Assembly: GCA_036491125.1 (NCBI GenBank)
Contig: DASXCO010000171.1
Location: forward strand, 1-44,993
DNA: 44,993 bases
Direction of reading: 5' to 3'
DNA from: Acidimicrobiales bacterium
GTDB lineage: Bacteria > Actinomycetota > Acidimicrobiia > Acidimicrobiales > AC-9
How positions within the stretch are numbered: the first letter of the stretch is position 1; each line of letters begins with the position of its first letter. The position numbers were made by a program, and so were the translations under genes. The notes beneath the pieces are model-generated. The model did not search any database. It worked only from the letters and a program-made list of their open reading frames with translations, and had not been told where the DNA came from. Below are positions 2 through 13,212 of the stretch, piece by piece.

Positions 2-2044
2 CTTGCCGGAGAGATCGCATCGGGTGCCGGTGGCCAGGTCGCCGAGAGCCTGGCCCCCGTTGGCTCCGCACTGTCGGACACGGCGCAGTCTCTGAAGGCC
101 CATTTCTCGGACTGGGGCGCTCGCCCGCGACCGGCCGTGGATGCTGCATCTGCCGGGGGAGGCGAGGGGGAGGAGCTGGAGTCGCTGGGCGGGCGTGCCA
201 CCGAGCTCTCACAAGCGGTGGGAGGTGTCACCGTCGGCGAGGACCGGCGGGAGCTGGCCACGTTGTTCGACCGCGCCTACCGGCTGACGACGGCGGTCGT
301 CGGCGGCCACAGCGATGTCGCGCCTGGACAGGCGAGGGCCGTGGCCGCCCGAGTGGTCGATAGCGTGCTCCGCCCGCTCGCCGGCGTCTTGGCGCCGACG
401 CCCGCGGAGAAGCCGGGTGTGGCCGCCGACGGCCCCGTTTCCACCAATGGCTCCGTGAAGGCGGAGGTGTGGCAGCTGGCCAAGGAGGCGACGCGGTTGT
501 GCACTCGTCTCGGCACGCATTCAGCGGCGAGGCCCGGCCTGCACGAGGCGACGGCGGCGTTGCAGGATCTCGCCTGCCAGCTCGATGCCGATGACCCGAA
601 CGCTCGCACGGCGGAGCTGCGCAGTCTGCAGACCAGCATGGCGCCCGCGATCCAGCTGGCGCCCGACGGCCCGTACCTCGTCGTCAACGCCGAGAACCTT
701 CGTAACTGGCTGGGACAGGCTCTCCCGGCCCGCCCGGCGATGGCTCTCTGCCGGTGTGGCGGCTCGGCCATGAAGCCGTTCTGCGACGGGACCCACGCCG
801 CGATCGGGTTCACCGCAGCCAAGGATCCCGAGCGGGTCCCGGATCGCTGCGACACGTACGTGGGTCAGCAGGTGACGATCCTCGACAACCGGGGGACCTG
901 TCAGCACTCGGGCCTGTGCAGCGACCGCCTGTCCACGGTGTTCCGAACCGGCCAGGAGCCGTTCGTGGCGCCGAGCGGAGGGCGGATGGACGAGATCGTT
1001 CGGGCCGTTCGTGACTGCCCCTCAGGCGCGCTCAGCTACGCCATCGACGGCGACGAGGTTCGCGACCAGGTCGACTGGGACAACCGTAGGGAGCCCACCA
1101 TCGAGGTCTCTCGCGACGGCCCGTACCGGATAACCGGCGGTGTCGATCTCGTCAGCGAGGAGGGTGGCGACGTGGCGCGTAACGCAGGGGCGTCGTACGA
1201 GCACTACGCCCTCTGTCGCTGCGGGCACTCACAGAACAAGCCCTTCTGCAGCGGCATGCACTGGTACGTCGACTTCCATGACCCCGCCCTCGACCCGGAC
1301 CGCGAGCCGACGATGTTCGGTTGGTGCGGCGGCCTCCCGGCGCTCACGAGGATGACCCGCCTCTTCTACGAGAGGTACGTCCCCGAGGACCCGCTGCTGG
1401 CCCCGCTGTTCGCCAACATGTCTGCAGACCATCCGCAGCGGGTGGCCAAGTGGCTCGGCGAGGTGTTCGGCGGGCCGTCCGCCTACAGCGATGAGTACGG
1501 GGGCTATTCGCGGATGGTCCAGCAGCACATCGGTAAGGGGCTCACCGAGGAGAGTCGGGCTCGTTGGGTTGCCCTGATCCTTCGGTCCGCCGACGAGGCG
1601 GGGCTGCCGAGCGATCCCGAGTTTCGTTCCGCCTTCGCCTCCTACATCGAGTGGGGGTCGCGCCTCGCCCTCGAGAACTCCCAGGCCGGTGCCCAGCCAC
1701 CTGAGCGCATGCCGATGCCCCATTGGAGCTGGGGCACCGCCGGCCCTCCAGGCAGTCGGGTGTCCGCTGTGCCCTCTCCGGGCGAGGGCGACGAGCAGCC
1801 CGTGGTCCTGCCGGCCGCGGACGAGACAGTGAGCTTTGCCAAGCACATCAAGCCGCTGTTTCGCCAGCGCGACCGGCAGTCGATGAAATTCGCCTTCGAC
1901 CTCTGGTCCTACGACGACGTCGGCGCGCGAGCCGACGACGTTCTCGCGCGCCTGCGCAACGGGTCGATGCCCTGCGACGGAGCCTGGCCGGAGGAGAAGG
2001 TCCAGGTCTTTCAGCGATGGATCGAGACGGGCAAGACCGCCTGA
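2..2044 (+). CDS. CDGSH / ferredoxin-like / truncated-globin fusion protein (5' end outside window)
   Basis: The frame is open from base 2, so the gene is probably cut by the left edge; GTG 137 is only the first start candidate inside the window. After an alpha-helical N-terminal part without a recognised domain, a perfect CDGSH motif (CRCGGSAMKPFCDGTH) lies at nt 749-796. A CxHxGxC...CPSGAL segment follows at about nt 898-1035 and resembles the divergent single-cluster ferredoxin domain. A second CDGSH-type motif at nt 1214-1261 has Ser for the Asp (CRCGHSQNKPFCSGMH). Then comes a group II truncated haemoglobin domain (about nt 1345-1690, with the FYxRYVPEDPLLAPLF and EVFGGP signatures). The C-terminal 60 residues (KHIKPLFRQRDRQSM...) recur as an appended domain in other bacterial proteins, as far as I recall. 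CDGSH domains bind 2Fe-2S clusters and the globin binds heme, so a redox or NO/O2-linked role is likely. The function is unknown. Confidence 0.85.
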   Translation, partial: LAGEIASGAGGQVAESLAPVGSALSDTAQSLKAHFSDWGARPRPAVDAASAGGGEGEELESLGGRATELSQAVGGVTVGEDRRELATLFDRAYRLTTAVVGGHSDVAPGQARAVAARVVDSVLRPLAGVLAPTPAEKPGVAADGPVSTNGSVKAEVWQLAKEATRLCTRLGTHSAARPGLHEATAALQDLACQLDADDPNARTAELRSLQTSMAPAIQLAPDGPYLVVNAENLRNWLGQALPARPAMALCRCGGSAMKPFCDGTHAAIGFTAAKDPERVPDRCDTYVGQQVTILDNRGTCQHSGLCSDRLSTVFRTGQEPFVAPSGGRMDEIVRAVRDCPSGALSYAIDGDEVRDQVDWDNRREPTIEVSRDGPYRITGGVDLVSEEGGDVARNAGASYEHYALCRCGHSQNKPFCSGMHWYVDFHDPALDPDREPTMFGWCGGLPALTRMTRLFYERYVPEDPLLAPLFANMSADHPQRVAKWLGEVFGGPSAYSDEYGGYSRMVQQHIGKGLTEESRARWVALILRSADEAGLPSDPEFRSAFASYIEWGSRLALENSQAGAQPPERMPMPHWSWGTAGPPGSRVSAVPSPGEGDEQPVVLPAADETVSFAKHIKPLFRQRDRQSMKFAFDLWSYDDVGARADDVLARLRNGSMPCDGAWPEEKVQVFQRWIETGKTA

Positions 2045-2113
2045 GCCGTCAGGTTCGCGTGGCCGTCGGCGCGGCGTCGATGCGAGGACCCGCCGCCCGT
2101 TCATCGGAGTGCT

Positions 2114-2171
2114 CAGGTCTCCGCCTCTCTCGGGCGCGGTTGCAGGCGTAGCTTCGAGCGCCCGAGACCTG
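2114..2171. terminator. Nested inverted repeats, possible terminator of the CDGSH-globin gene
   Basis: CAGGTCTC (2114-2121) pairs with GAGACCTG (2164-2171), and TCTCGGGCGC (2128-2137) pairs with GCGCCCGAGA (2158-2167). The right arms overlap, so the two pairings compete or stack. The structure lies 70-130 bases after the stop codon. No T-run follows, so it is not a classical intrinsic terminator. The rest of 2045-2269 holds the promoter described next. Confidence 0.5.
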
Positions 2172-2180
2172 CGGTGAGGG

Positions 2181-2215
2181 TTGACAGCATCGCGGCTCCG
2201 CAGGAGACTGCGGAG
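2181..2215 (+). promoter_or_regulatory. TTGACA promoter with GNRA-loop hairpin
   Basis: TTGACA at 2181-2186 is followed after 17 bases by GAGACT (2204-2209), a plausible promoter for the NTF2-like gene. A perfect 8-bp hairpin, CTCCGCAG-GAGA-CTGCGGAG (2196-2215), overlaps the -10 region. Its GAGA loop fits the GNRA tetraloop pattern. As double-stranded DNA it could instead be an operator. Confidence 0.4.
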
Positions 2216-2269
2216 TGAGGCGAGCGGGCCGTCAGTTCGTCGGCCCCTCTCGCCACAAGGGGGGCCAAG

Positions 2270-2656
2270 ATGAGCAGAGCCGAGATCGAGGGCCGGGCGG
2301 AGGATTTCTCGAAGGTATTCGCGACACACGACGCCGCTGCGATGGCCGCGTTCTATACGGCGGACGCCAGGTTCCTGGCGCCCAACATGCCGATGATCGA
2401 GGGCCGGGCTGGCATCGAGGCGTTCGGCAAGGAGATGTTCGCCGCCGGCGGGCAATCTCTCGAGCTCGACACGGTCGACGTGCTCGACGGTGGCGACCTG
2501 GAGATCGAGGTCGGGAACTACACGATGGGGATACAGCCACCCGACAGCGATTCGTTGGTCGACAACGGGAAGTATGTGGCGGTTTGGAAGAGAGACGTCG
2601 ACGGCAGCCTGAAAATGGCGATCGACACCTTCAACACCAACGCACCACTGGCATAG
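2270..2656 (+). CDS. NTF2-like (SnoaL/DUF4440-type) protein
   Basis: This 128-residue protein has the typical length and layout of the NTF2-like superfamily: an N-terminal helix, then a FYTADARFLAPNMP segment, an EGRAGIEAF helix and a C-terminal beta sheet ending in the VAVWKRDVDGSLKMAIDTFN strand pattern. It resembles stand-alone DUF4440/SnoaL_3 proteins, which bind small hydrophobic ligands or catalyse isomerisation or cyclisation. No specific substrate can be read from the sequence. The ATG start has a purine-rich AAGGGGGG ribosome binding site. The gene appears monocistronic between the hairpin region and the cyclase gene. Confidence 0.8.
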   Translation: MSRAEIEGRAEDFSKVFATHDAAAMAAFYTADARFLAPNMPMIEGRAGIEAFGKEMFAAGGQSLELDTVDVLDGGDLEIEVGNYTMGIQPPDSDSLVDNGKYVAVWKRDVDGSLKMAIDTFNTNAPLA

Positions 2657-2708
2657 CCGCAGACTGACCGGGCTCCTTCAGGTGTCCCGGAGGTGCTGAG
2701 ATACAGCG

Positions 2709-3809
2709 GTGCCCCATAGCCCGGATGTCACCGAGCTCGAGCGGCTCGGCGTGTACGACCCCTCGGCGCCGGACGCCGAGGATCGCCTGCGCCTTATCGG
2801 CCGGCTCTTCGAGCTGGGCGCCACTACCGAGGAGGTCGTGCGGGCGGCGCGACTCGCCGGGCTCGGAAGCCTGTCGCTCGACCTGTCGATCCGACCGCCA
2901 GGGGAGGCGTTCGGATTCGACGACTTCGCCAACAGATCGGGGCTCGACCCTGTCCTGGTCCGGCGCCTCTGGCTGGCGCTGGGGTTGCCCGCCTCGGGCC
3001 CGATGCCGCTCGAGGTCACTCCCGACGCGGCTGAGGCGCTGCGCCTTCTCGTGGGCCTGGAGAGCATGGTGGGCGAGGACGCCACCCTCGGTGTCGCACG
3101 AGTGATCGGCTCGTCGATGGCGCGCCTGGCCGAATCGGTCGCAAGCGCCATCCGGATCGGGATCGAGGTCCCCAAGCTGGACGCGGGGACCAGGTACTCC
3201 CAGGTCGTCGAGGAGTACTCCGCCAGTGGGCGCGAGCTGCTCCCGCAGGTCCTCGACGCCGTCAACGCCGTCTTCCGTCGCCACCTCGTCCTCGTCTCGT
3301 ACCAGCGGTGGTCAACGGACGAGGACATGGCGGCGGTCACCCTGGAACGCACGGTCGGCTTCGCCGACATGGTCAGGTCCACTGAAGCCGTTCGCGCCGA
3401 GTCGGTAGCGGCATTGGCCCAGATGGTGCGTCGGTTCGAGGAGCTGGTCTGGGACGTGGTCACCGAGGTCGGCGGCCGGGTCGTGAAGTTGATCGGCGAC
3501 GAGGCCATGTTCGTGGTCGAGGACGCAGCACCGGCGTGCCAGATCGCCCTCGATCTCGTCGAGCGGTCGCCGTACCCGGTACGGATGGGACTCGCCCACG
3601 GGGCCGTCGTCGGCCTCTTCGGCGACTATTACGGCGAGACCGTCAACCTGGCGGCCCGTCTCGTCGGCGTCGCGGACGGCGAAAGCGTCCTCGTCTCCGA
3701 GACGGTGCGACGTGAGGCAGCCGACGCCTTCAGCTTCGAAGCACAACCAGCTCGCTCTCTCAAGGGCTTCGACGAAGCCACCGTCACTTACCGACTGCGC
3801 GGACGCTAG
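2709..3809 (+). CDS. Class III adenylate/guanylate cyclase with N-terminal regulatory domain
   Basis: The 366-residue protein has a helical N-terminal regulatory region (about 1-205) like that of mycobacterial cyclases of the Rv1264 type, followed by a class III catalytic domain (about 208-345). Visible catalytic residues are the metal-binding Asp220 (VGFADMV), Lys260 and Asp264 (VKLIGDEAMF), and the transition-state pair Asn313/Arg317 in ETVNLAARL. It should make cAMP (possibly cGMP) from the NTP in the cytoplasm. No membrane segment is present. The start is GTG. The stop codon overlaps that of the convergent SDR gene within a shared CTAG. Confidence 0.87.
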   Translation: MPHSPDVTELERLGVYDPSAPDAEDRLRLIGRLFELGATTEEVVRAARLAGLGSLSLDLSIRPPGEAFGFDDFANRSGLDPVLVRRLWLALGLPASGPMPLEVTPDAAEALRLLVGLESMVGEDATLGVARVIGSSMARLAESVASAIRIGIEVPKLDAGTRYSQVVEEYSASGRELLPQVLDAVNAVFRRHLVLVSYQRWSTDEDMAAVTLERTVGFADMVRSTEAVRAESVAALAQMVRRFEELVWDVVTEVGGRVVKLIGDEAMFVVEDAAPACQIALDLVERSPYPVRMGLAHGAVVGLFGDYYGETVNLAARLVGVADGESVLVSETVRREAADAFSFEAQPARSLKGFDEATVTYRLRGR

Positions 3810-4783
3810 TCGTGCGGGTGGTCCGGCCGGGCGCCGAGCAGGGCGGTGCCGAAGTCGGTGTCGTTGTAGTCGTAGGCCCGCTCGGGGTCGGCCCGGACCC
3901 GTGAGTCCTGAACCTTGGCATCGTCGCCCACGAGGATCCGCCAGCGTCCGGCCCGAACGCCGTCGAGGATGATCGTCGCCGCTTCGGCGGCGGTGACCGG
4001 CGCGTTTTGACTGAAACCCTCGACCATCATCTTGACGATCTGGCGCAGCTGCTCAGTCGAGATGTCGTCCGCCGGCAGGCCTCGCATGGCGATCTGCGCT
4101 CGCATCTGCTCGAGGTCGGAGTCGGGGATGTCGTCGAGCTCGGGGCCGCCGAGAATGCGGCGGGAGTTGACCACGATGTCGGTCCCTATGTGGCCGGGCA
4201 TGACAACGGCCACCTTGACGTGCGGCGCGTGGATCCTGAGATCCTCGATCAGGGCTTCGGAGAACCCCTTCACGGCGAATTTGGCGGTGCTGTATGCCGT
4301 GTGAGGGACTCCGGGACCGAGCGAGGCCCAGAAGCCGTTGACGCTGCTCGTGTTGACGAGATACCCGTCATCGCTGGCGATGAGCAGCGGCAGGAGGGCC
4401 CGGGTGCAGTAGTAGACACCCCACCAGTCGATGGCGAAGGTCCGCTCCCAATCCGCCCGGTCGTCGGCGATGAAGCTGCCGCCTCCTCCGATGCCGGCGT
4501 TGTTGAACACCAGGTTCACGTGGTCGGCCGCGTGCTGGGTCGTCACCTCGTCGCGAAAGCGGAGGACATCGTCCTCGACCGACACGTCACACGCGTGCGT
4601 CGTGATCCGGCTCCCGACCGGGGCTCGCCCGGCCGTCTCGCTCACGCGGGCAGGGTCGATGTCGCAGGTAGCGACCGAGCATCCCTCGGCGGCGAGTTGG
4701 AGGACCAGCTCTCGTCCCATTCCTGAGCCGCCTCCGGTGACGATGGCCAACTTCCCCGCAAACGAGTCCACGCTCAGCTCCAT
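3806..4783 (-). CDS. Short-chain dehydrogenase/reductase (SDR)
   Basis: This is a classical NAD(P)-dependent SDR of 325 residues from ATG 4783. The Rossmann nucleotide motif TGGGSGMG is at residues 16-23. The structural NNAG, the catalytic Ser (NTSSVNGF) and the YSTAK (Tyr-x-x-x-Lys) pair are all present. A further GTG start 45 bases upstream is possible, but ATG 4783 has a GGAAGGG motif just before it and begins at the usual family N-terminus. The C-terminal extension of about 60 residues is common in actinobacterial SDRs that act on hydrophobic alcohols or ketones. The gene lies 84 bp downstream of the WYL regulator on the same strand and may be co-transcribed with it. The substrate is unknown. 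Confidence 0.87.
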   Translation of the reverse strand: MELSVDSFAGKLAIVTGGGSGMGRELVLQLAAEGCSVATCDIDPARVSETAGRAPVGSRITTHACDVSVEDDVLRFRDEVTTQHAADHVNLVFNNAGIGGGGSFIADDRADWERTFAIDWWGVYYCTRALLPLLIASDDGYLVNTSSVNGFWASLGPGVPHTAYSTAKFAVKGFSEALIEDLRIHAPHVKVAVVMPGHIGTDIVVNSRRILGGPELDDIPDSDLEQMRAQIAMRGLPADDISTEQLRQIVKMMVEGFSQNAPVTAAEAATIILDGVRAGRWRILVGDDAKVQDSRVRADPERAYDYNDTDFGTALLGARPDHPHD

Positions 4784-4867
4784 GCCCTTCCGGCCCGGCC
4801 ACCGCGGCCGTTGTCCTGGTCGCGCCACCGTAGGCGGCTCGGCGCGCCGCAGCCAGCCTCGGCCCGT

Positions 4868-5821
4868 TCAGCGGTAGACGCTCACCACGTCCCGCGCCGT
4901 CATGAGCACCCTCTCGCGGAGCTCAGGTGGGTCGATGATCTCGACCGTGCCACCCAACGCCACGAGCTCGCGAGCGGCGCTGCCCAGGTCGTCGAAGCTC
5001 ACCGAGGTCCGTACCACGGTGCAGCCGTCGTGCGGTGCGACCGATTCGGTGTGATATCCCCGTTGGCGGAGGATGGCGATGGCCTTCTCAGTGGCGTCCA
5101 GCGATGCCGTCACCCTCTTGGCGCCGACCTCGAAGCTCGCCACCGAGTCGGCCCAGTAGCGGGTGAGATCGAAGTCGGGCGGGCGGGCGGACTCCTCGGA
5201 CAGGGCCCGAGCCGACCTGATCCTCGACACCCGGTAGGTGCGTGTCTGGCCGTCTCGCCCCGCGACCAGGTACCACATGCCTGCCTTGAGCACGAGTCCC
5301 AGGGGATCGAGCACGCGTCGGGCGTCCTCGTCATCGTCGAGATGGTGGTAGACGATCTCGAGGCGGCGGCCCTCCCACACCGCCGTAGCCACCGGCCCGA
5401 GGTGCGCCGGGACGTGCGAGGCTCGGAACCAACCCGCGGTGTCCAGGTGGAAGCGCTGGCGGACGAGGAAGGCGCGGTCGGCGACGTCCTTCGGAAGGGC
5501 GGCGAGCAGCTTGGCCTGGGCGGCGGCGAAGACGGTGCCGAGGCCGAGCTCGCCGACGGGTCCGGGCGTCCCGCCGATGAGCAACGCCTCGGCTTCCCGT
5601 GCGGACAGCCCCGTCAGCCGCGTGCGGTAGCCCTCGACCAGACGGAACCCTCCGCCGCGGCCGGCCTCCGCGTAGACCGGGACTCCGGCAGCGGAGAGCG
5701 CCTCGACGTCCCGATAGACGGTGCGGACCGACACCTCGAGCTCCTCGGCCAGCTCCGGCGCCGTGAGTTGTCCACGACTCTGCAGCAGCAACAGCAGCGA
5801 CACCAGCCGGCTCGCTCGCAC
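4868..5821 (-). CDS. WYL-domain transcriptional regulator (YafY/DeoR-like)
   Basis: This 317-residue regulator has an N-terminal winged helix-turn-helix (residues 1-60, with LTAPELAEELEVSVRTVYRDVEAL) and a WYL domain (about 140-215, with LKAGMWYLVAGRDGQTRTYRVSRI). A C-terminal WCX-like domain follows. Such proteins sense small ligands or nucleic acids and control adjacent genes. The start is GTG 5821. A perfect palindrome 23 bp upstream (5844-5862) is a candidate operator. The SDR downstream is a likely target or operon partner. Confidence 0.88.
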   Translation of the reverse strand: MRASRLVSLLLLLQSRGQLTAPELAEELEVSVRTVYRDVEALSAAGVPVYAEAGRGGGFRLVEGYRTRLTGLSAREAEALLIGGTPGPVGELGLGTVFAAAQAKLLAALPKDVADRAFLVRQRFHLDTAGWFRASHVPAHLGPVATAVWEGRRLEIVYHHLDDDEDARRVLDPLGLVLKAGMWYLVAGRDGQTRTYRVSRIRSARALSEESARPPDFDLTRYWADSVASFEVGAKRVTASLDATEKAIAILRQRGYHTESVAPHDGCTVVRTSVSFDDLGSAARELVALGGTVEIIDPPELRERVLMTARDVVSVYR

Positions 5822-5962: not shown

Positions 5963-6418
5963 GTGCGGGTCATGGTGGCAACTGACATGGATGGTCTCGA
6001 CCAGGGAAAGCAGGCGCTGGGTGGAGCGCGGCATGGCCCTGGCTGCACCGTCGTCACCGGTGTCCTGATAGCCGAGAGCCTCCGAGTCGGCTCGCTATTG
6101 CAGGACCTCCCCCTCCGAGTGGACGAGATCTCTCGCATCGACGCCGGAGATGTCGACGCCGGCCAGCCGAGGACGTGGACCTTCATCCACTTCGAAGCGC
6201 CTGTCGGGGACGCCGACGGGCTCGCTGCTGCGCTCAGCTCCGGGCTCCAGCGACGAGGGGGGTGGTACTGCAACTTCCGTTCGGGCGACGACACGTTCAT
6301 CGTCTTCGCCGACGCGGTGTTCCGCTATCCGAGGGGCGACACGGTACGGCGGGCCGAGGCGGAGGACTTCGCCCGTTCGTGTGGCGTCCCCGAGCCACAG
6401 CTGGACTGGGAGGAGTGA
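5963..6418 (+). CDS. Conserved hypothetical protein
   Basis: The protein is at most 151 residues from GTG 5963. The well-formed part starts near residue 35 (VLIAESLRVGSLLQDLPLRV) and resembles small uncharacterised actinobacterial proteins that I recall but cannot name as a family. It is soluble, acidic and has conserved-looking blocks (RTWTFIHFE, GGWYCNFRSGDDTFIVFADAVFRYPRGD). The real start is uncertain: ATG 5987 is also in frame, and the first 30 residues look less conserved. The stop overlaps the ATG of the next gene (TGATG), so translational coupling is likely. Confidence 0.6.
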   Translation: MRVMVATDMDGLDQGKQALGGARHGPGCTVVTGVLIAESLRVGSLLQDLPLRVDEISRIDAGDVDAGQPRTWTFIHFEAPVGDADGLAAALSSGLQRRGGWYCNFRSGDDTFIVFADAVFRYPRGDTVRRAEAEDFARSCGVPEPQLDWEE

Positions 6419-6771
6419 TGTCCCGAGACGAGGTGATGGTGGCCTGCCTGGCGTACCCCGGCGCAGTCGAGGACTACCCATTCGGCGACGAGGTCGCCGT
6501 CTTCAGGATCGGCGGGCGCATGTTCGCCCTCGTGTCGCTCGTCGGACTGCCCGGCAGCGTCAACGTCAAGTGCGACCCAGATCTCGCCCTCGAGCTTCGT
6601 GCCCAGCACGCTGCCGTGCGCCCTGGCTACCACCAGGACAAGCGCCACTGGAACACGGTCGACCTCGACGGAACGATCGAGGACAACGAGGTCCTCGACA
6701 TGATCGCCCACTCCTACGAGCTCGTCATGAACAAACTGCCCCGACGGCAGAGGGCTGCCCTCGAGCCGTGA
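6418..6771 (+). CDS. MmcQ/YjbR family protein
   Basis: This 117-residue protein carries the YjbR/MmcQ (DUF419) pattern: LAYPGAVEDYPFGDEVAVFRIGGRMFALV, then a central SVNVKCDPDLALELR block, a PGYHQDKRHWNTVDLDG turn and a C-terminal helix beginning SYELVMNKL. Members adopt a CyaY-like fold and are often called DNA-binding on structural grounds, but the biochemical role is not established. The ATG overlaps the preceding stop by one base, so the two genes form an operon. Confidence 0.87.
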   Translation: MSRDEVMVACLAYPGAVEDYPFGDEVAVFRIGGRMFALVSLVGLPGSVNVKCDPDLALELRAQHAAVRPGYHQDKRHWNTVDLDGTIEDNEVLDMIAHSYELVMNKLPRRQRAALEP

Positions 6772-6884
6772 CGTCGTGCCCGATGGCGGGGGCGACTGCG
6801 TCGGGTGAATGGCAGAGGCCGCAGGGCGCGGCGAGCGACGCCGCCGGTGCCGGGCGCACCTCGACGAAGGAGGCGGCGGCGGCG

Positions 6885-6932
6885 ATGAGCGGCGCCTATA
6901 TCCTGGTCTTCGTGAGGTTCCTGACCGAATAG
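6885..6932 (+). CDS. Putative leader peptide upstream of ABC-F gene
   Basis: A 15-codon ORF encodes MSGAYILVFVRFLTE and stops 51 bp before the ABC-F ATG. It has a strong GAAGGAGG ribosome binding site, although the spacing is long (11 bases after GGAGG). The GC-rich 6772-6884 region before it shows no other ORF. Antibiotic-resistance and ribosome-protection ABC-F genes are often controlled by ribosome stalling on such leaders, so an attenuation role is plausible. Between the two ORFs, GACGG (6935) and CCGTC (6950) could pair. This is inference; conservation cannot be checked here. Confidence 0.5.
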   Translation: MSGAYILVFVRFLTE

Positions 6933-6983
6933 CTGACGGCCGACGACGTCCGTCCCTCCCTGATCCTCCCGAGGAGCCTCACC

Positions 6984-8582
6984 ATGCTCACCGCCACCAA
7001 CCTGCAGTTGCGCGTCGGGCCGCGCCTGCTGCTGGAGCCGGCGGCGTTCCACGTCGCCGCCGGCGACCGTATCGGGCTGGTCGGACGCAACGGGTCAGGC
7101 AAGACGACCCTCGTGAGGGCGCTGGCCGGCGAGATCGCGCCGGCCTCCGGCGAGGTGACCCGCCCGCAGGCGATCGGCTACCTGCCGCAGGATCCGCGGA
7201 CCGGTGACCTGGATGTGCCGGCCCGCCAGCGGATCCTGTCGGCCCGCGGCCTCGACCACCTCAGCCACGAGATGGAGTCGGCCCGCGCCGCCATGGGCGG
7301 GCACGACCCGGTCGCCGTGGACCGGGTGCTTCGTCGCTACGGCGACCTCGAGGACCGCTTCCAGGTCCTCGGCGGCTACGGCGCCGAGGCCGAGGCCAGC
7401 TCGATCGCGTCCAGTCTGGCGCTCGGCGAGCGGGCGCTGGACCAGCCGCTGCGGACGCTGTCCGGGGGTCAGCGCCGCCGGATCGAGCTCGCCCGGGTCC
7501 TGTTCAGCGGGGCGGAGCTGCTGCTGCTGGACGAGCCCACCAACCATCTCGACGCTGATTCGATCGCCTGGCTCCGGGAGTTCCTACGCGCCCATGCCGG
7601 TGGCCTGGTCGTCATCAGCCACGATCGCGACCTGCTCGGATCGACGGTCAACCGGGTCTTCCACCTCGACGCCAACCGGGCGGCCCTCGAGGTCTACAAC
7701 CTCGGCTGGCGTGCCTACCTCGACCAGCGTGAGGTCGACGAGCGCCGCCGGCACCGGGAGCGGGCCAACGCCGAGAAGAGGGCCACCGCGCTGCGCGACC
7801 AGGCGGCGCGCATGCGGGCGAAGGCGACGAAGGCCAAGGCGGCCAAGGGCATGGCCCGGCGCGCCGACCAGATGATGGCGAGCGTCGGCGACGTCCGCAG
7901 GGCCGACCGCGTCGCCCGGCTGCGCTTCCCGAGCCCGACGCCGTGTGGGCGCACACCCCTCGCTGCCACCGGTCTGTCGAAATCCTTCGGATCGCTCGAG
8001 GTCTTCACCGACGTCGACCTGGCCGTCGACCGCGGCTCGCGGGTGGTGGTGCTGGGTCTCAACGGCGCCGGCAAGACCACACTGTTGCGCGTGCTCGTGG
8101 GGCTGGAGGGGCCGGACACGGGGACCGTGACGCCCGGACACGGGCTACGGCTGGGCTATTACGCCCAGGAGCACGAGCGTCTGGATGGAGACGCCAGCGT
8201 GCTCGAGAACATGCGCTCGGCCGCCGCCGGCCTCGAGGTGTCCGAGGCTCGCAGCGTCCTGGGATCGTTCCTCTTCTCAGGTGACGCCGTCCACCAGGCC
8301 GTCGGGACCCTGTCGGGGGGAGAGAAGACCAGGTTGGCGCTGGCCACCCTGGTGGTCTCGGGGGCGAACGTGTTGCTCCTCGACGAGCCCACCAACAACC
8401 TCGATCCCGCAAGCCGGGCCGAGGTGCTCGACGCCCTCGCCCGCTACGAGGGGGCGGTCGTGCTGGTCACCCACGACGAGGCGGCGGTCGAGGCGTTGCG
8501 CCCGGAACGGGTGCTGCTCCTGCCCGACGGGGTGGAGGACGCCTGGCGGGGCGAGCTGGCCGATCTGGTCGCCCTCTCCTGA
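6984..8582 (+). CDS. ABC-F family ATPase
   Basis: The 532-residue protein has two ABC domains and no membrane segments, which defines the ABC-F class of ribosome-acting ATPases. Domain 1 has Walker A GRNGSGKTT, signature LSGGQRRRIELAR and Walker B LLLLDEPTNHLD. Domain 2 has GLNGAGKTT, LSGGEKTRLAL and LLLDEPTNNLD. The Lys/Arg-rich linker at about 240-300 (RRHRERANAEKRATALRDQ, RAKATKAKAAKGMARR) corresponds to the P-site tRNA interaction motif. It may be a housekeeping translation factor or protect ribosomes from antibiotics; the sequence alone does not decide. The start ATG has AGGAG 7 bases upstream. Confidence 0.92.
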   Translation: MLTATNLQLRVGPRLLLEPAAFHVAAGDRIGLVGRNGSGKTTLVRALAGEIAPASGEVTRPQAIGYLPQDPRTGDLDVPARQRILSARGLDHLSHEMESARAAMGGHDPVAVDRVLRRYGDLEDRFQVLGGYGAEAEASSIASSLALGERALDQPLRTLSGGQRRRIELARVLFSGAELLLLDEPTNHLDADSIAWLREFLRAHAGGLVVISHDRDLLGSTVNRVFHLDANRAALEVYNLGWRAYLDQREVDERRRHRERANAEKRATALRDQAARMRAKATKAKAAKGMARRADQMMASVGDVRRADRVARLRFPSPTPCGRTPLAATGLSKSFGSLEVFTDVDLAVDRGSRVVVLGLNGAGKTTLLRVLVGLEGPDTGTVTPGHGLRLGYYAQEHERLDGDASVLENMRSAAAGLEVSEARSVLGSFLFSGDAVHQAVGTLSGGEKTRLALATLVVSGANVLLLDEPTNNLDPASRAEVLDALARYEGAVVLVTHDEAAVEALRPERVLLLPDGVEDAWRGELADLVALS

Positions 8583-8990: not shown

Positions 8991-10063
8991 TGACCATCGA
9001 GCCCATGGAAGCGGGCGCGCCGCTGGCCCGAGAGGTGGCCATTTCGCCCAGCGCGGAGGCGCGCCCCGCTCGTTCGGTGTTGTCGGCCGCGGGCGCCGCG
9101 CTGCTGGACGAGAAGCGACCGCTCGACGGGGGTGAGCTCCGCGCCCTGGCACTGCTTCCCGACGAGGCGATCCCATCGCTGGCCGCCCTGGCCCACGAGG
9201 TCCGGCTGGCCTGGCGGGGGCCGACGGTCGAGGTGGAGGGGATCCTGTCGGCCAAGACGGGCGGGTGCCCCGAGGACTGCGCCTTCTGCAGCCAGTCGTC
9301 CCGGTTCGACTCGCCCGTCAAGGCCACCCCCTTCCTCGACACCGGCGAGGTGCTGGCGGCTGCCGAGGAGACGGCGAAGCTGGGGGCATCCGAGTTCTGC
9401 CTCGTGCTGGCCGTGCGCGGTCCCGACGAGCGCACGCTGCAGCGCATCATCGACCTGGTGCCCCTCGTCGGGGAGCGCACCGGGCTCAACGTAGCCGTGA
9501 GCGCGGGGATCCTCTCACCCGAGCAGGCGGGGCGTCTGGCCGCCGCCGGCGTGCACCGCTACAACCACAACATCGAGACGGCGCGCTCGTACTTCGGCCG
9601 GATCGTGACGACGCACACCTGGGAGGAGCGGGCGGAGACGTGCCGGTTGGTGCGCCAGCACGGGATGGAGCTCTGCTGCGGCGTCCTCCTCGGCATGGGC
9701 GAGAGCGACGAGCAGCGCCTCGAGCTGCTGGGCCAGCTCCGGGAGCTGGACCCCGCCGAAGTCCCGGTCAACTTCCTCAATCCCCGTCCCGGCACGCCGC
9801 TGGCCGAGCGGCCCATCGTTGGGGCCATGGACGCGCTGCGGTGGATAGCGCTCTTCCGCCTGGCCCTGCCGGGCGTGATTCTCCGCTACGCGGGGGGCAG
9901 GGAGGTCACCCTCGGCCAGCTCCAGGCCATGGGCATGACCGCGGGGATCAACGCCTTGATCGTCGGCAACTACCTGACGACCCTGGGTCGGCCGCCGGAG
10001 GACGATCTGCGGATGCTGGCCGACCTGCGGATGCCCATCGGGGCCCTCAGCCCCGTCATCTGA
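8990..10063 (+). CDS. bioB: Biotin synthase BioB
   Basis: This radical-SAM enzyme inserts sulfur into dethiobiotin, the last step of biotin synthesis. In 357 residues it has the CxxxCxxC motif for the SAM-binding 4Fe-4S cluster (Cys93, Cys97, Cys100 in GGCPEDCAFCSQS). The family blocks YNHNIETARSYF, ETCRLVRQHGMELCCGVLLGMGE, VPVNFLNPRPGTPL and GGREVTLGQLQAMGMTAG are also present. The N-terminal 50 residues extend beyond the E. coli type. No bioA, bioD or bioF is present in the window. The next gene starts directly after the stop codon and encodes the likely accessory protein. Confidence 0.95.
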   Translation: MTIEPMEAGAPLAREVAISPSAEARPARSVLSAAGAALLDEKRPLDGGELRALALLPDEAIPSLAALAHEVRLAWRGPTVEVEGILSAKTGGCPEDCAFCSQSSRFDSPVKATPFLDTGEVLAAAEETAKLGASEFCLVLAVRGPDERTLQRIIDLVPLVGERTGLNVAVSAGILSPEQAGRLAAAGVHRYNHNIETARSYFGRIVTTHTWEERAETCRLVRQHGMELCCGVLLGMGESDEQRLELLGQLRELDPAEVPVNFLNPRPGTPLAERPIVGAMDALRWIALFRLALPGVILRYAGGREVTLGQLQAMGMTAGINALIVGNYLTTLGRPPEDDLRMLADLRMPIGALSPVI

Positions 10064-10237
10064 GTGGCGCGGTCGCACTGCACCGGCTGCGGCCAACCCG
10101 TCGAGCACTGCCCGGGCTGTCGCCGATCGCTGGACCCTCCCCGCTTCTGCCCGTCCTGTGGGCGCCGGCTCACGGTGCTCGTGACCCCGCTGCGGTCGGT
10201 GGGACGGTGTCCCGAGCACGGCGAGAGCGCCAGCTGA
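10064..10237 (+). CDS. bsaP: Biotin synthase auxiliary protein BsaP-like, cysteine-rich (57 aa)
   Basis: The GTG start follows the bioB stop with no gap. The 57-residue product has repeated metal-ligand patterns: HCTGCG (N-terminus), HCPGC, FCPSCG and RCPEH. Mycobacterial BioB is known to need a small cysteine-rich partner, BsaP, encoded directly downstream of bioB. The location, size and Cys/His pattern here match that arrangement. It probably binds an Fe-S cluster and supports BioB turnover. An unrelated zinc-ribbon protein is the alternative. At 57 codons it is easily missed by gene callers. Confidence 0.8.
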   Translation: MARSHCTGCGQPVEHCPGCRRSLDPPRFCPSCGRRLTVLVTPLRSVGRCPEHGESAS

Positions 10238-10259
10238 ACACGCCGGCAGGCTCCCAGGT

Positions 10260-11547
<1,288 letters not shown>

Positions 11548-11569
11548 ATTAACGCGACGCTCGGTCGGG

Positions 11570-12370
11570 CTAGCTCAGCACGTCCTTGCGGAGGAACCGC
11601 CACCAGGCCAGACCCAGGAACACCGCCACGTAGGGGAGCTCCAAGAGCACCCCGTGCACCATGTCGCTGGTCCGGGTCGGCTGGAAGAACAGTCCGTGCC
11701 AGGCGTCGATGTAGTGCGTGGGGAAGGCGAAGCTCATGAAGTCGAGGGCCGAGATGTTGTTGAGGATCTGGCTGACGATCCCGAGCCCGACGCCGCCGGC
11801 CACGGCGGCGAAGGCCGAATCGGTCATGGTCGACAGCAGGAAGGCGAAGGTGACGAAGGACGCCATGCTCCACGCCACGTAGATGGTGCCGAGCGCCAGC
11901 TTTCCGATCGCCGAGGTCTGGGAGACGATCTGGAACGACGGGGTCAGCACCGGGTGCCAGCCGAAGGCGATGATCCCGGCCACGAGGGCGACGACGGTGA
12001 TGACGATGGTCGCCACCACCGACAGCACCGAGGCCACCAACAGCTTGGTGGCCAGGAGACGGGGCCGGGAGACGGGGCGCACGAGAAGGTAGCGCAGGGT
12101 GCCCCACGTCGCCTCGCCCGAGACCGTCTCGCCGGCGAAGAGCGAGACCACGATGACCAGCAGGAAAGCGCTGGTAGCGGTCAAAGCCGCCAGCGGCACG
12201 TTGATCCCCGAGTGCGTGGCCACGTCGAAGTAGCCCCGCTCGTTGCTCGACGGGCTCGGTGGGTTGAGCTTGAGGGCGACGGTCAGGATGATCGGGATCA
12301 GAGCGAGGACGCCGAGGGCGATGTAGGTCCGTGCCCGGCGGACCTGCTTGATGAACTCGACCCGAATCAC
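11570..12370 (-). CDS. ABC-2 type transport permease (no adjacent ATPase)
   Basis: This protein of about 266 residues has six predicted hydrophobic segments, starting with ARTYIALGVLALIPIILTVAL and ending with LLELPYVAVFLGLAWWRFLRKDVL. The LLVRPVSRPRLLATKL loop is typical of ABC-2/NatB-like permeases. GTG 12370 is preferred over ATG 12409 because TATGCT, a good -10 element, ends 9 bases before GTG 12370. The PhoP-type box also ends immediately before ATG 12409, which would leave no room for a promoter. No ATP-binding subunit is nearby, so the ATPase must be encoded elsewhere. Confidence 0.78.
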   Translation of the reverse strand: MIRVEFIKQVRRARTYIALGVLALIPIILTVALKLNPPSPSSNERGYFDVATHSGINVPLAALTATSAFLLVIVVSLFAGETVSGEATWGTLRYLLVRPVSRPRLLATKLLVASVLSVVATIVITVVALVAGIIAFGWHPVLTPSFQIVSQTSAIGKLALGTIYVAWSMASFVTFAFLLSTMTDSAFAAVAGGVGLGIVSQILNNISALDFMSFAFPTHYIDAWHGLFFQPTRTSDMVHGVLLELPYVAVFLGLAWWRFLRKDVLS

Positions 12371-12409
12371 GCCGGCCGGAGCATACCCGGCTCTCCGGGG
12401 TTTCCCCAT

Positions 12410-12426
12410 CTGGGAGCGCTCTGTGA
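12410..12426 (-). promoter_or_regulatory. PhoP-type box upstream of ABC-2 permease
   Basis: Leftward TCACAG-N5-TCCCAG (plus-strand CTGTGA at 12421 and CTGGGA at 12410) has an 11-bp step. It stands back-to-back with the box of the phoP-like gene, 22 bp away. The -10-like TATGCT lies about 24 bp downstream in the direction of transcription. Confidence 0.7.
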
Positions 12427-12448
12427 ATGTGGCTGCTGGGGGCGTTGC

Positions 12449-12465
12449 TCACAGCAAGCTCCCAG
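12449..12465 (+). promoter_or_regulatory. PhoP-type box upstream of phoP-like gene (autoregulation)
   Basis: TCACAG (12449-12454) and TCCCAG (12460-12465) form a direct repeat with an 11-bp step. With flanks it reads TCACAGC-N4-TCCCAGG, close to the known PhoP box TCACAGC-N4-TCACAGC. CATCAT about 10 bp further may be the -10 element. An inverted repeat, TCATCA-GTGG-TGATGA (12478-12493), then covers the start codon. Confidence 0.7.
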
Positions 12466-12489
12466 GTCGGGCTGCCATCATCAGTGGTG

Positions 12490-13212
12490 ATGAGCTGGAA
12501 GGAAAGCCCTACGCGGGGGTCGGAGCCGGCCACGAGGGTCCTGGTGGTCGACGACGAGCAGTACATCCGGGACCTCGTCGGCACGTCCTTGCGCTACGAA
12601 GGCTTCGAGGTGGAGGAGGCGAGCATGGGGCGGGCCGCGCTGGCCGCCGCCTCGTCCTTCCGCCCCGACCTGATCGTGCTCGACGTGCTGCTCCCCGACC
12701 TCGACGGCCTGGAGGTGACCAGGCGCCTGCGGAGCGACGGGCTGCGGGTGCCCGTGCTCTTCCTGACGGCCAGGGACGCCACCGAGGACAAGGTGGCCGG
12801 GTTGACCGTCGGCGGCGACGACTACGTCACGAAGCCCTTCAGCCTCGAGGAGCTGGTGGCGAGGGCGCGGGCAATCCTGCGCCGCACCCAGGGGGAGGCC
12901 GAGTCGGGAGCTCAGCTGCAGTTCGCCGACCTGATGCTCGACGAGGACACCCGGGAGGTGTGGCGCGGCGGCGTCCTCGTCCACCTCACCGCCACCGAGT
13001 TCAACCTCCTTCGCTACTTCATGCTCAACCCCCGGCGGGTCCTGTCCAAGGTGCAGATCCTCGAGCACGTGTGGCAGTACGACTTCGAGGGCGATCCCAA
13101 CGTCCTGGAGACCTACATCAGCTACCTGCGCAAGAAGCTGGACCCGCTGGGACCCCCGCTCATCCACACCAGCCGCCAGGTGGGCTACAGCCTGCGCCTC
13201 CCGCAGGCCTGA
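12490..13212 (+). CDS. phoP: PhoP-like OmpR-family response regulator
   Basis: The 240-residue protein has a receiver domain with Asp21/Asp22, phospho-acceptor Asp65 (LIVLDVLLPD), Thr93 (FLTARD) and Lys115 (DDYVTKPFSLEE). The C-terminal winged helix includes LTATEFNLLRYFMLNPRRVL, LEHVWQYDFEGDPNVLETYISYLRKKLD and HTSRQVGYSLR. The whole sequence strongly resembles mycobacterial PhoP from memory, including GGDDYVTKPFSLEELVAR. ATG 12490 is chosen; GTG 12484 and 12487 are in frame directly before it. The gene is followed by its histidine kinase and preceded by a matching PhoP-type box. Confidence 0.88.
   Translation: MSWKESPTRGSEPATRVLVVDDEQYIRDLVGTSLRYEGFEVEEASMGRAALAAASSFRPDLIVLDVLLPDLDGLEVTRRLRSDGLRVPVLFLTARDATEDKVAGLTVGGDDYVTKPFSLEELVARARAILRRTQGEAESGAQLQFADLMLDEDTREVWRGGVLVHLTATEFNLLRYFMLNPRRVLSKVQILEHVWQYDFEGDPNVLETYISYLRKKLDPLGPPLIHTSRQVGYSLRLPQA

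Follow-up and report, generated by a model that had tools for sequence, protein, structure and literature searches.

The window, a 44,993-nt stretch of an Acidimicrobiales genome, began with part of a gene whose product linked two CDGSH domains (CISDs), a Fer4_19 domain, a group II truncated globin and a small C-terminal domain, preceded on another contig by a ferritin-like domain. A globin together with three Fe-S sites and a ferritin-like two-iron domain in a soil actinobacterium is a rare, conserved combination. With a probability of roughly 40%, the protein is a single multi-centre haem oxidoreductase, in which the Fe-S module would supply electrons to the globin and, in the long forms, also to the diiron site. 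The component domains are known; the joined protein is apparently undescribed, since no publication on CDGSH together with a truncated haemoglobin was found in the accessible literature (subscription journals were mostly beyond the reach of the search), the globin fusion is absent from the CISD surveys PMC3174974 and PMC5859297, and the former nowhere uses the word "globin".

The frame at nt 2–2044 (plus strand) was open for 680 codons from the contig start to a stop codon, and every segment of it was under purifying selection (see below); the visible 680 aa were the C-terminal portion of a gene truncated at the contig edge. As the window starts at the first base of contig C171, the 5′-end of the gene was cut by the assembly and not by biology. 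With the visible chain as query, a search of its genome located the missing 5′ portion on contig C60, with a 100% match at its first bases. Reverse-complemented C60 overlapped the window start by exactly 141 bp, bases 1–141 of C60 (minus strand) being identical to window nt 1–141, and the frame continued upstream; thus, the assembly break lies inside the fusion gene. The joined gene encoded 1096 aa from a GTG start located behind a Shine-Dalgarno-like GGAGGAG, with the order ferritin-like domain (PF12902, VioB-related), helical linker, CDGSH, Fer4_19, CDGSH, group II truncated globin and small C-terminal domain. According to the C60 join and Pfam, visible residues 1–210 (nt 2–631) comprised the C-terminal tail of the ferritin-like region and the helical linker, and Pfam on the joined chain placed the ferritin-like domain itself off the window, on C60 from nt 1388 down to 1 (minus strand). 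All Pfam matches in the visible chain (two zf-CDGSH, Fer4_19 and Bac_globin) exceeded the curated cut-offs and, with the open frame, confirmed the linkage of the CDGSH, ferredoxin-like and globin domains proposed in a first-pass annotation of the sequence, to which the upstream sequence from C60 added a ferritin-like domain not seen there. That annotation had allowed for a sequencing error joining two genes; this proved negative, the homologues being contiguous in one frame. An assembly chimera was ruled out as well, because in two homologues, G002 and G070, a single contig holds the gene in full, and in the others the core is in one frame. Chance occurrence of the motifs was excluded by the Pfam E-values, the fold match and the dN/dS ratios. 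As to an anti-phage role, the visible part had no PADLOC match, and this candidate was dropped.

Pfam gave 2.9e-31 for the two zf-CDGSH matches. The first CDGSH domain, CRCGGSAMKPFCDGTH (nt 665–799, E 3.9e-13), contained the motif CDGTH and a predicted [2Fe-2S] site with 3 Cys and 1 His, all invariant among the homologues. The second, CRCGHSQNKPFCSGMH (nt 1115–1264, E 1.8e-17), retained the four ligands, three Cys and a His, and had the Asp-to-Ser replacement already noticed in the first-pass annotation plus a Ser-to-Met replacement in the same motif. Between them, at nt 857–1042 (residues 286–347), was the mono-cluster domain Fer4_19 (DUF1271; Pfam 1.1e-16), the earlier reading of which as a CxHxGxC...CPSGAL segment was correct, the residues being CQHSGLC...CPSGAL. 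Its motif, C-x-H-x3-C...C-P, has 3 Cys and an invariant His and lacks the middle Cys of the classical C-x2-C-x2-C, and it could hold a [3Fe-4S] or a His-ligated [4Fe-4S] cluster. With DUF1271/Fer4_19 flanked on either side by one CISD, and with the 3 Cys + 1 His set of both CISDs invariant in nine homologues, the module is the known type 7 CISD, subtype CDC, for which [2Fe-2S] clusters are predicted in the CISDs. The three-domain order and ligands are identical to those described by Lin et al. 2011 (PMC3174974), with CISDs related to type 4 (3tbm), whereas the globin, the C-terminal domain, the upstream ferritin-like domain and the CSGMH second motif are additions of the fusion. The canonical Asp was not present in both motifs, which read CDGTH and then CSGMH; since Asp is no cluster ligand, it was not treated as defining CDC, although its replacement is a real departure. 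In the alignment, CSGMH occurred in 9/9 large fusions, whereas 11/11 other CDGSH proteins had Asp at that position. CSGMH is a signature of the large fusion family and leaves the four ligands intact.

The globin (nt 1301–1690) was assigned by Pfam, sequence and fold, the Bac_globin match covering residues 437–535 of the visible chain (E 1.9e-8) and the residues Tyr B10, Phe CD1, His F8 and Trp G8 being present; His F8 and Trp G8, by which group II is recognized, were both invariant in nine homologues. Fold comparison of the model gave a TM score of 0.88 with 5d1v (Z 16.9, rmsd 1.8, 121 aligned) and a Z of 15.9 with the Thermobifida globin 2bmm. The domain is therefore a group II truncated haemoglobin, as the first-pass annotation had it, for which binding of haem and of O2/NO is predicted. 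Pfam domains and conserved ligands likewise supported three Fe-S sites and one haem site per chain, all predicted, and the loss of cluster ligands in homologues that would have spoken against them was observed in none of the nine aligned. The full-length model of ~1100 aa was poor (pLDDT 50.7), and the core was then folded from a deeper alignment; with pTM of 0.32 and 0.42 for the full-length and core models, inter-domain positions are unreliable and the Fer4_19 part is poorly modelled, and the fold search with the core model was dominated by the globin. A stand-alone paralogue in Actinoplanes was 58% identical to the window globin. In G070, Phe stood at B10 of the globin, which was missed by Pfam although it retained His F8 and Trp G8; one lineage may thus manage without haem chemistry.

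A single frame encoding the core (CDGSH-Fer4_19-CDGSH-globin-C-terminal domain) was found in ten genomes: that of the window and its congeners G001 and G002, G070 of the same order, Actinoplanes sandaracinus, Nocardia jejuensis, G725, G763, G1205 and Taibaiella koreensis. The last is the sole member of Bacteroidota, and the core thus spans two phyla. The survey sampled chiefly actinobacteria and one class of Bacteroidota, with other phyla covered by one pattern scan and a plasmid collection. The full-length form was present on single contigs in G002 (1100 aa) and G070 (1235 aa); the G070 homologue (L031 nt 989–4693) was ~140 residues longer, chiefly in the linker. Over nine aligned homologues, which belonged to several groups of actinobacteria and to one Bacteroidota species, the predicted cluster ligands, His F8, Trp G8 and a set of C-terminal residues were invariant. 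Among the three congeners, dN/dS (Nei-Gojobori) was about 0.07–0.30 in all segments, lowest in the second CDGSH (0.07–0.11) and the globin (0.07–0.15), and all domains are under purifying selection.

The ferritin-like domain was more variable. In the full chain, PF12902 scored 140.7 bits against a cut-off of 22.3 (E 8.3e-41), and E56, E100, H103, E256 and H266 (numbered in the window protein) were invariant in an alignment of nine PF12902-type proteins of different origin, so that both the score and the conserved E/H ligands place the domain in this family. The E/H set is the pattern expected of a diiron site, the ligand role being suggested by the ferritin-like fold; this predicted site, outside the window, is a further centre missed in the first-pass annotation. 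The window gene, G002 and G070 had the domain with its full ligand set; it was absent or eroded in 6/10 large fusions. The Taibaiella, Nocardia and G725-type homologues lacked it and started near the helical linker, and Actinoplanes had an eroded remnant alignable in pieces. In G001 (L006 nt 470–568), ~20 residues of the first ferritin-like helix were missing and the frame was broken there, owing to either mutation or assembly. The core was retained where the domain was lost or eroded, and because of this variability the unit kept in all is the Fe-S module, the globin and the C-terminal domain.

No credible Pfam family matched the C-terminal helical domain (nt 1808–2041), which has the pattern F..HI.PLFR..DR.SM.F.FDLW...MPCDG.W...F.RW. 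A profile of twelve copies matched residues 661–743 at the C-terminus of the biosynthetic enzyme AsqI (PDB 5yy2, 5yy3; E 1.2e-8 with 5yy2), and the rest of AsqI had no match to the fusion protein. The domain also occurred near tyrosinase genes on Mesorhizobium and Bradyrhizobium plasmids and twice, in tandem, at the end of an Acaryochloris ferritin-like protein; copies were located at L056 nt 3740–4249, L057 nt 1103–1309 and 4001–4216, and L058 nt 4001–4210. Thus, the separate C-terminal domain of unknown role described earlier is real and recurs elsewhere, and its contexts, near tyrosinase genes and at the end of a ferritin-like protein and of AsqI, mark it as a likely accessory domain in O2-linked metalloproteins.

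In the haem oxidoreductase considered here, for which we infer cofactor occupancy, electron flow and reaction, a cellular donor (reduced flavin, a thiol or a ferredoxin/NAD(P)H reductase) would pass electrons into the CDGSH/Fer4_19 clusters and from these to the globin haem, which would be re-reduced after each turnover. The ferrous haem would bind O2 and turn over, most plausibly in NO dioxygenation or in O2/peroxide reduction, with the Fe-S module taking the role that FAD has in flavohaemoglobin; in the long forms, the diiron domain could be a second O2-using site supplied by the same module. As the Fe-S module, globin and C-terminal domain are common to all homologues, the core function would reside in these and the diiron site would be an optional extension. 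Internal electron transfer to O2 or NO, which the first-pass annotation had also suggested with sulfide species as a further acceptor, is a possible consequence of this anatomy; nothing in the analysis pointed to sulfide in particular. By analogy of function only, the fusion resembles other globins joined to an electron supplier: globins fused to or encoded beside such suppliers act as NO dioxygenases, and in the algal nitrate reductase-truncated globin fusion the reductase part re-reduces the haem (PMC3820574). Flavohaemoglobin, however, has a flavin/NAD(P)H domain where the present protein has Fe-S clusters, and NO dioxygenase activity is only proposed for the latter; the Pfam scan of the full chain revealed no FAD/NAD(P)H reductase domain, so the protein is not a flavohaemoglobin, and no dedicated reductase was fused to it or recognized adjacent to the gene. 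The CDGSH cluster of mitoNEET is redox-active and binds NO when reduced, with O2 blocking the access of NO (PMC9490426, PMC11995679), so CDGSH domains and globins handle the same gases. In two actinobacteria, small proteins of CDGSH-CDGSH-group II globin, at most 334–350 codons, indicated that a CDGSH-globin pair is retained even by itself, which was counted in favour of electron supply. Also in its favour are the invariant ligands, the low dN/dS, the persistence of the core in homologues with a lost or eroded ferritin-like domain, and the neighbouring or fused ferritin-like and type 7 CISD genes of Streptomyces and Asticcacaulis; the Phe at B10 of the G070 globin and the variable gene neighbourhoods, which carry no NO signature, speak against it. 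The wider proposal, a self-sufficient haemoglobin enzyme in which a NEET-type [2Fe-2S] plus Fer4_19 reductase replaces the flavoprotein and a diiron oxidase sits on the same chain, forming a new NO/O2-handling class, is doubtful.

What CDGSH (NEET) clusters do is under debate, the candidates being electron transfer, cluster donation and NO/O2 sensing. With both CDGSH clusters placed beside an O2/NO-binding haem in two phyla, the electron-transfer and gas-reactivity ideas become testable in one bacterial protein. On the wider proposal, CDGSH clusters would gain a physiological electron acceptor, and the globin would have an iron-sulfur reductase, an arrangement found in no accessible publication.

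Resemblances to HolF/HlmG, VioB and AsqI make a biosynthetic oxidase the main rival, in which the VioB-type ferritin-like domain and the HolF/HlmG-type globin would oxidize an organic substrate, a natural product or other small molecule, with electrons from the Fe-S clusters. The window globin was 54% identical to a globin of plasmid pTML1 from a thiomarinol producer, which by its place corresponds to HolF; HlmG, Hom2 and HolF are the globins listed for holomycin-type clusters (PMC3826145). These group II globins of dithiolopyrrolone clusters stand alone inside an NRPS cluster, whereas the window globin is fused, and no proof of what HlmG-type globins do was found in the accessible literature. 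In the surroundings of the gene (window nt up to 14 kb, and C60), read without a cluster-detection tool, neither a dithiolopyrrolone-type nor any other biosynthetic cluster was recognized. VioB was the nearest named family for the ferritin-like domain, its model TIGR04492 matching full-chain residues 27–424 at model positions 587–974 only and scoring 73.4 bits where the cut-off is 1250. The ferritin-like region is homologous to the C-terminal part of VioB, whereas the remainder of VioB is absent, and on this score a VioB orthologue was ruled out. The match of the C-terminal domain to AsqI and its occurrence beside tyrosinase genes favour a biosynthetic role, against which stands the lack or erosion of the ferritin-like domain in more than half of the large fusions. 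On balance, we regard such an oxidase as rather unlikely.

A further alternative, distinctly unlikely, is a non-catalytic gas or redox sensor, in which the globin and CDGSH clusters would bind O2 or NO, change state, and signal or protect the clusters. The NO and O2 behaviour of mitoNEET is in line with this, as are the DJ-1/PfpI genes and the HxlR or LysR regulators near some homologues; however, an output domain (kinase, cyclase or DNA-binding) was absent from every homologue scanned, and the cyclase-like gene downstream in the window was not at that place in two congeners. DJ-1/PfpI genes were located near the Taibaiella and Actinoplanes homologues (L003 nt 6037–7745, L005 nt 9750–12,908), together with RidA and HxlR genes or with an ABM gene, and point weakly to electrophile or redox stress. 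No neighbour recurred in all genomes compared, DJ-1/PfpI being near two homologues only, and no NO signature was seen among the neighbouring genes, which varied between genomes. From its surroundings, the fusion gene looks monocistronic. Downstream in the window were a SnoaL-like gene, an adenylate/guanylate cyclase-like gene and an opposite-strand SDR gene, the last two assigned by sequence reading; the SnoaL-like and cyclase-like pair occupied nt 2270–3809, between the fusion gene and the SDR gene. In G001 and G002, the SDR gene directly followed the fusion gene; thus, the pair was inserted in the window genome or lost in the congeners.

Mere accretion of modules with related iron/oxygen chemistry, joined for co-expression with no electron transfer between them, would account for the loss of the ferritin-like domain in several homologues, the degenerate G070 globin, the lack of Fer4_19 in the small fusions and the possibly independent origin of separate CDGSH-globin fusions, but it is very unlikely, as core order and ligands are invariant across two phyla, beyond the needs of co-expression, and CSGMH is an invariant change specific to the fusion. 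Related ARRANGEMENTS (Asticcacaulis, Streptomyces and the small fusions) indicate that ferritin-like, CDGSH and globin domains have been joined or placed next to each other in several ways. Proteins with ferritin-like and CDGSH domains together, as in the present fusion, were already reported by Inupakutika et al. 2018 (PMC5859297), where a globin is unmentioned; likewise, the Asticcacaulis form had ferritin-like, Fer4_19, CDGSH and CDGSH domains in one chain without a globin. On a plasmid of Streptomyces sp. NBC_01483 (L055 nt 3974–5775), a ferritin-like gene was directly followed by a CDGSH-Fer4_19-CDGSH gene. An apparent CDGSH-globin fusion in Streptomyces NBC_01471 was discarded, the frame upstream of the globin having no CDGSH motif. 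The small CDGSH-CDGSH-globin fusions, located at L062 nt 1465–2391 and L063 nt 1438–2370 (minus strand), possibly arose by a separate fusion event. In a globin tree with no resolution in its backbone, they grouped with a stand-alone Taibaiella globin, and the large fusions were compatible with one origin.
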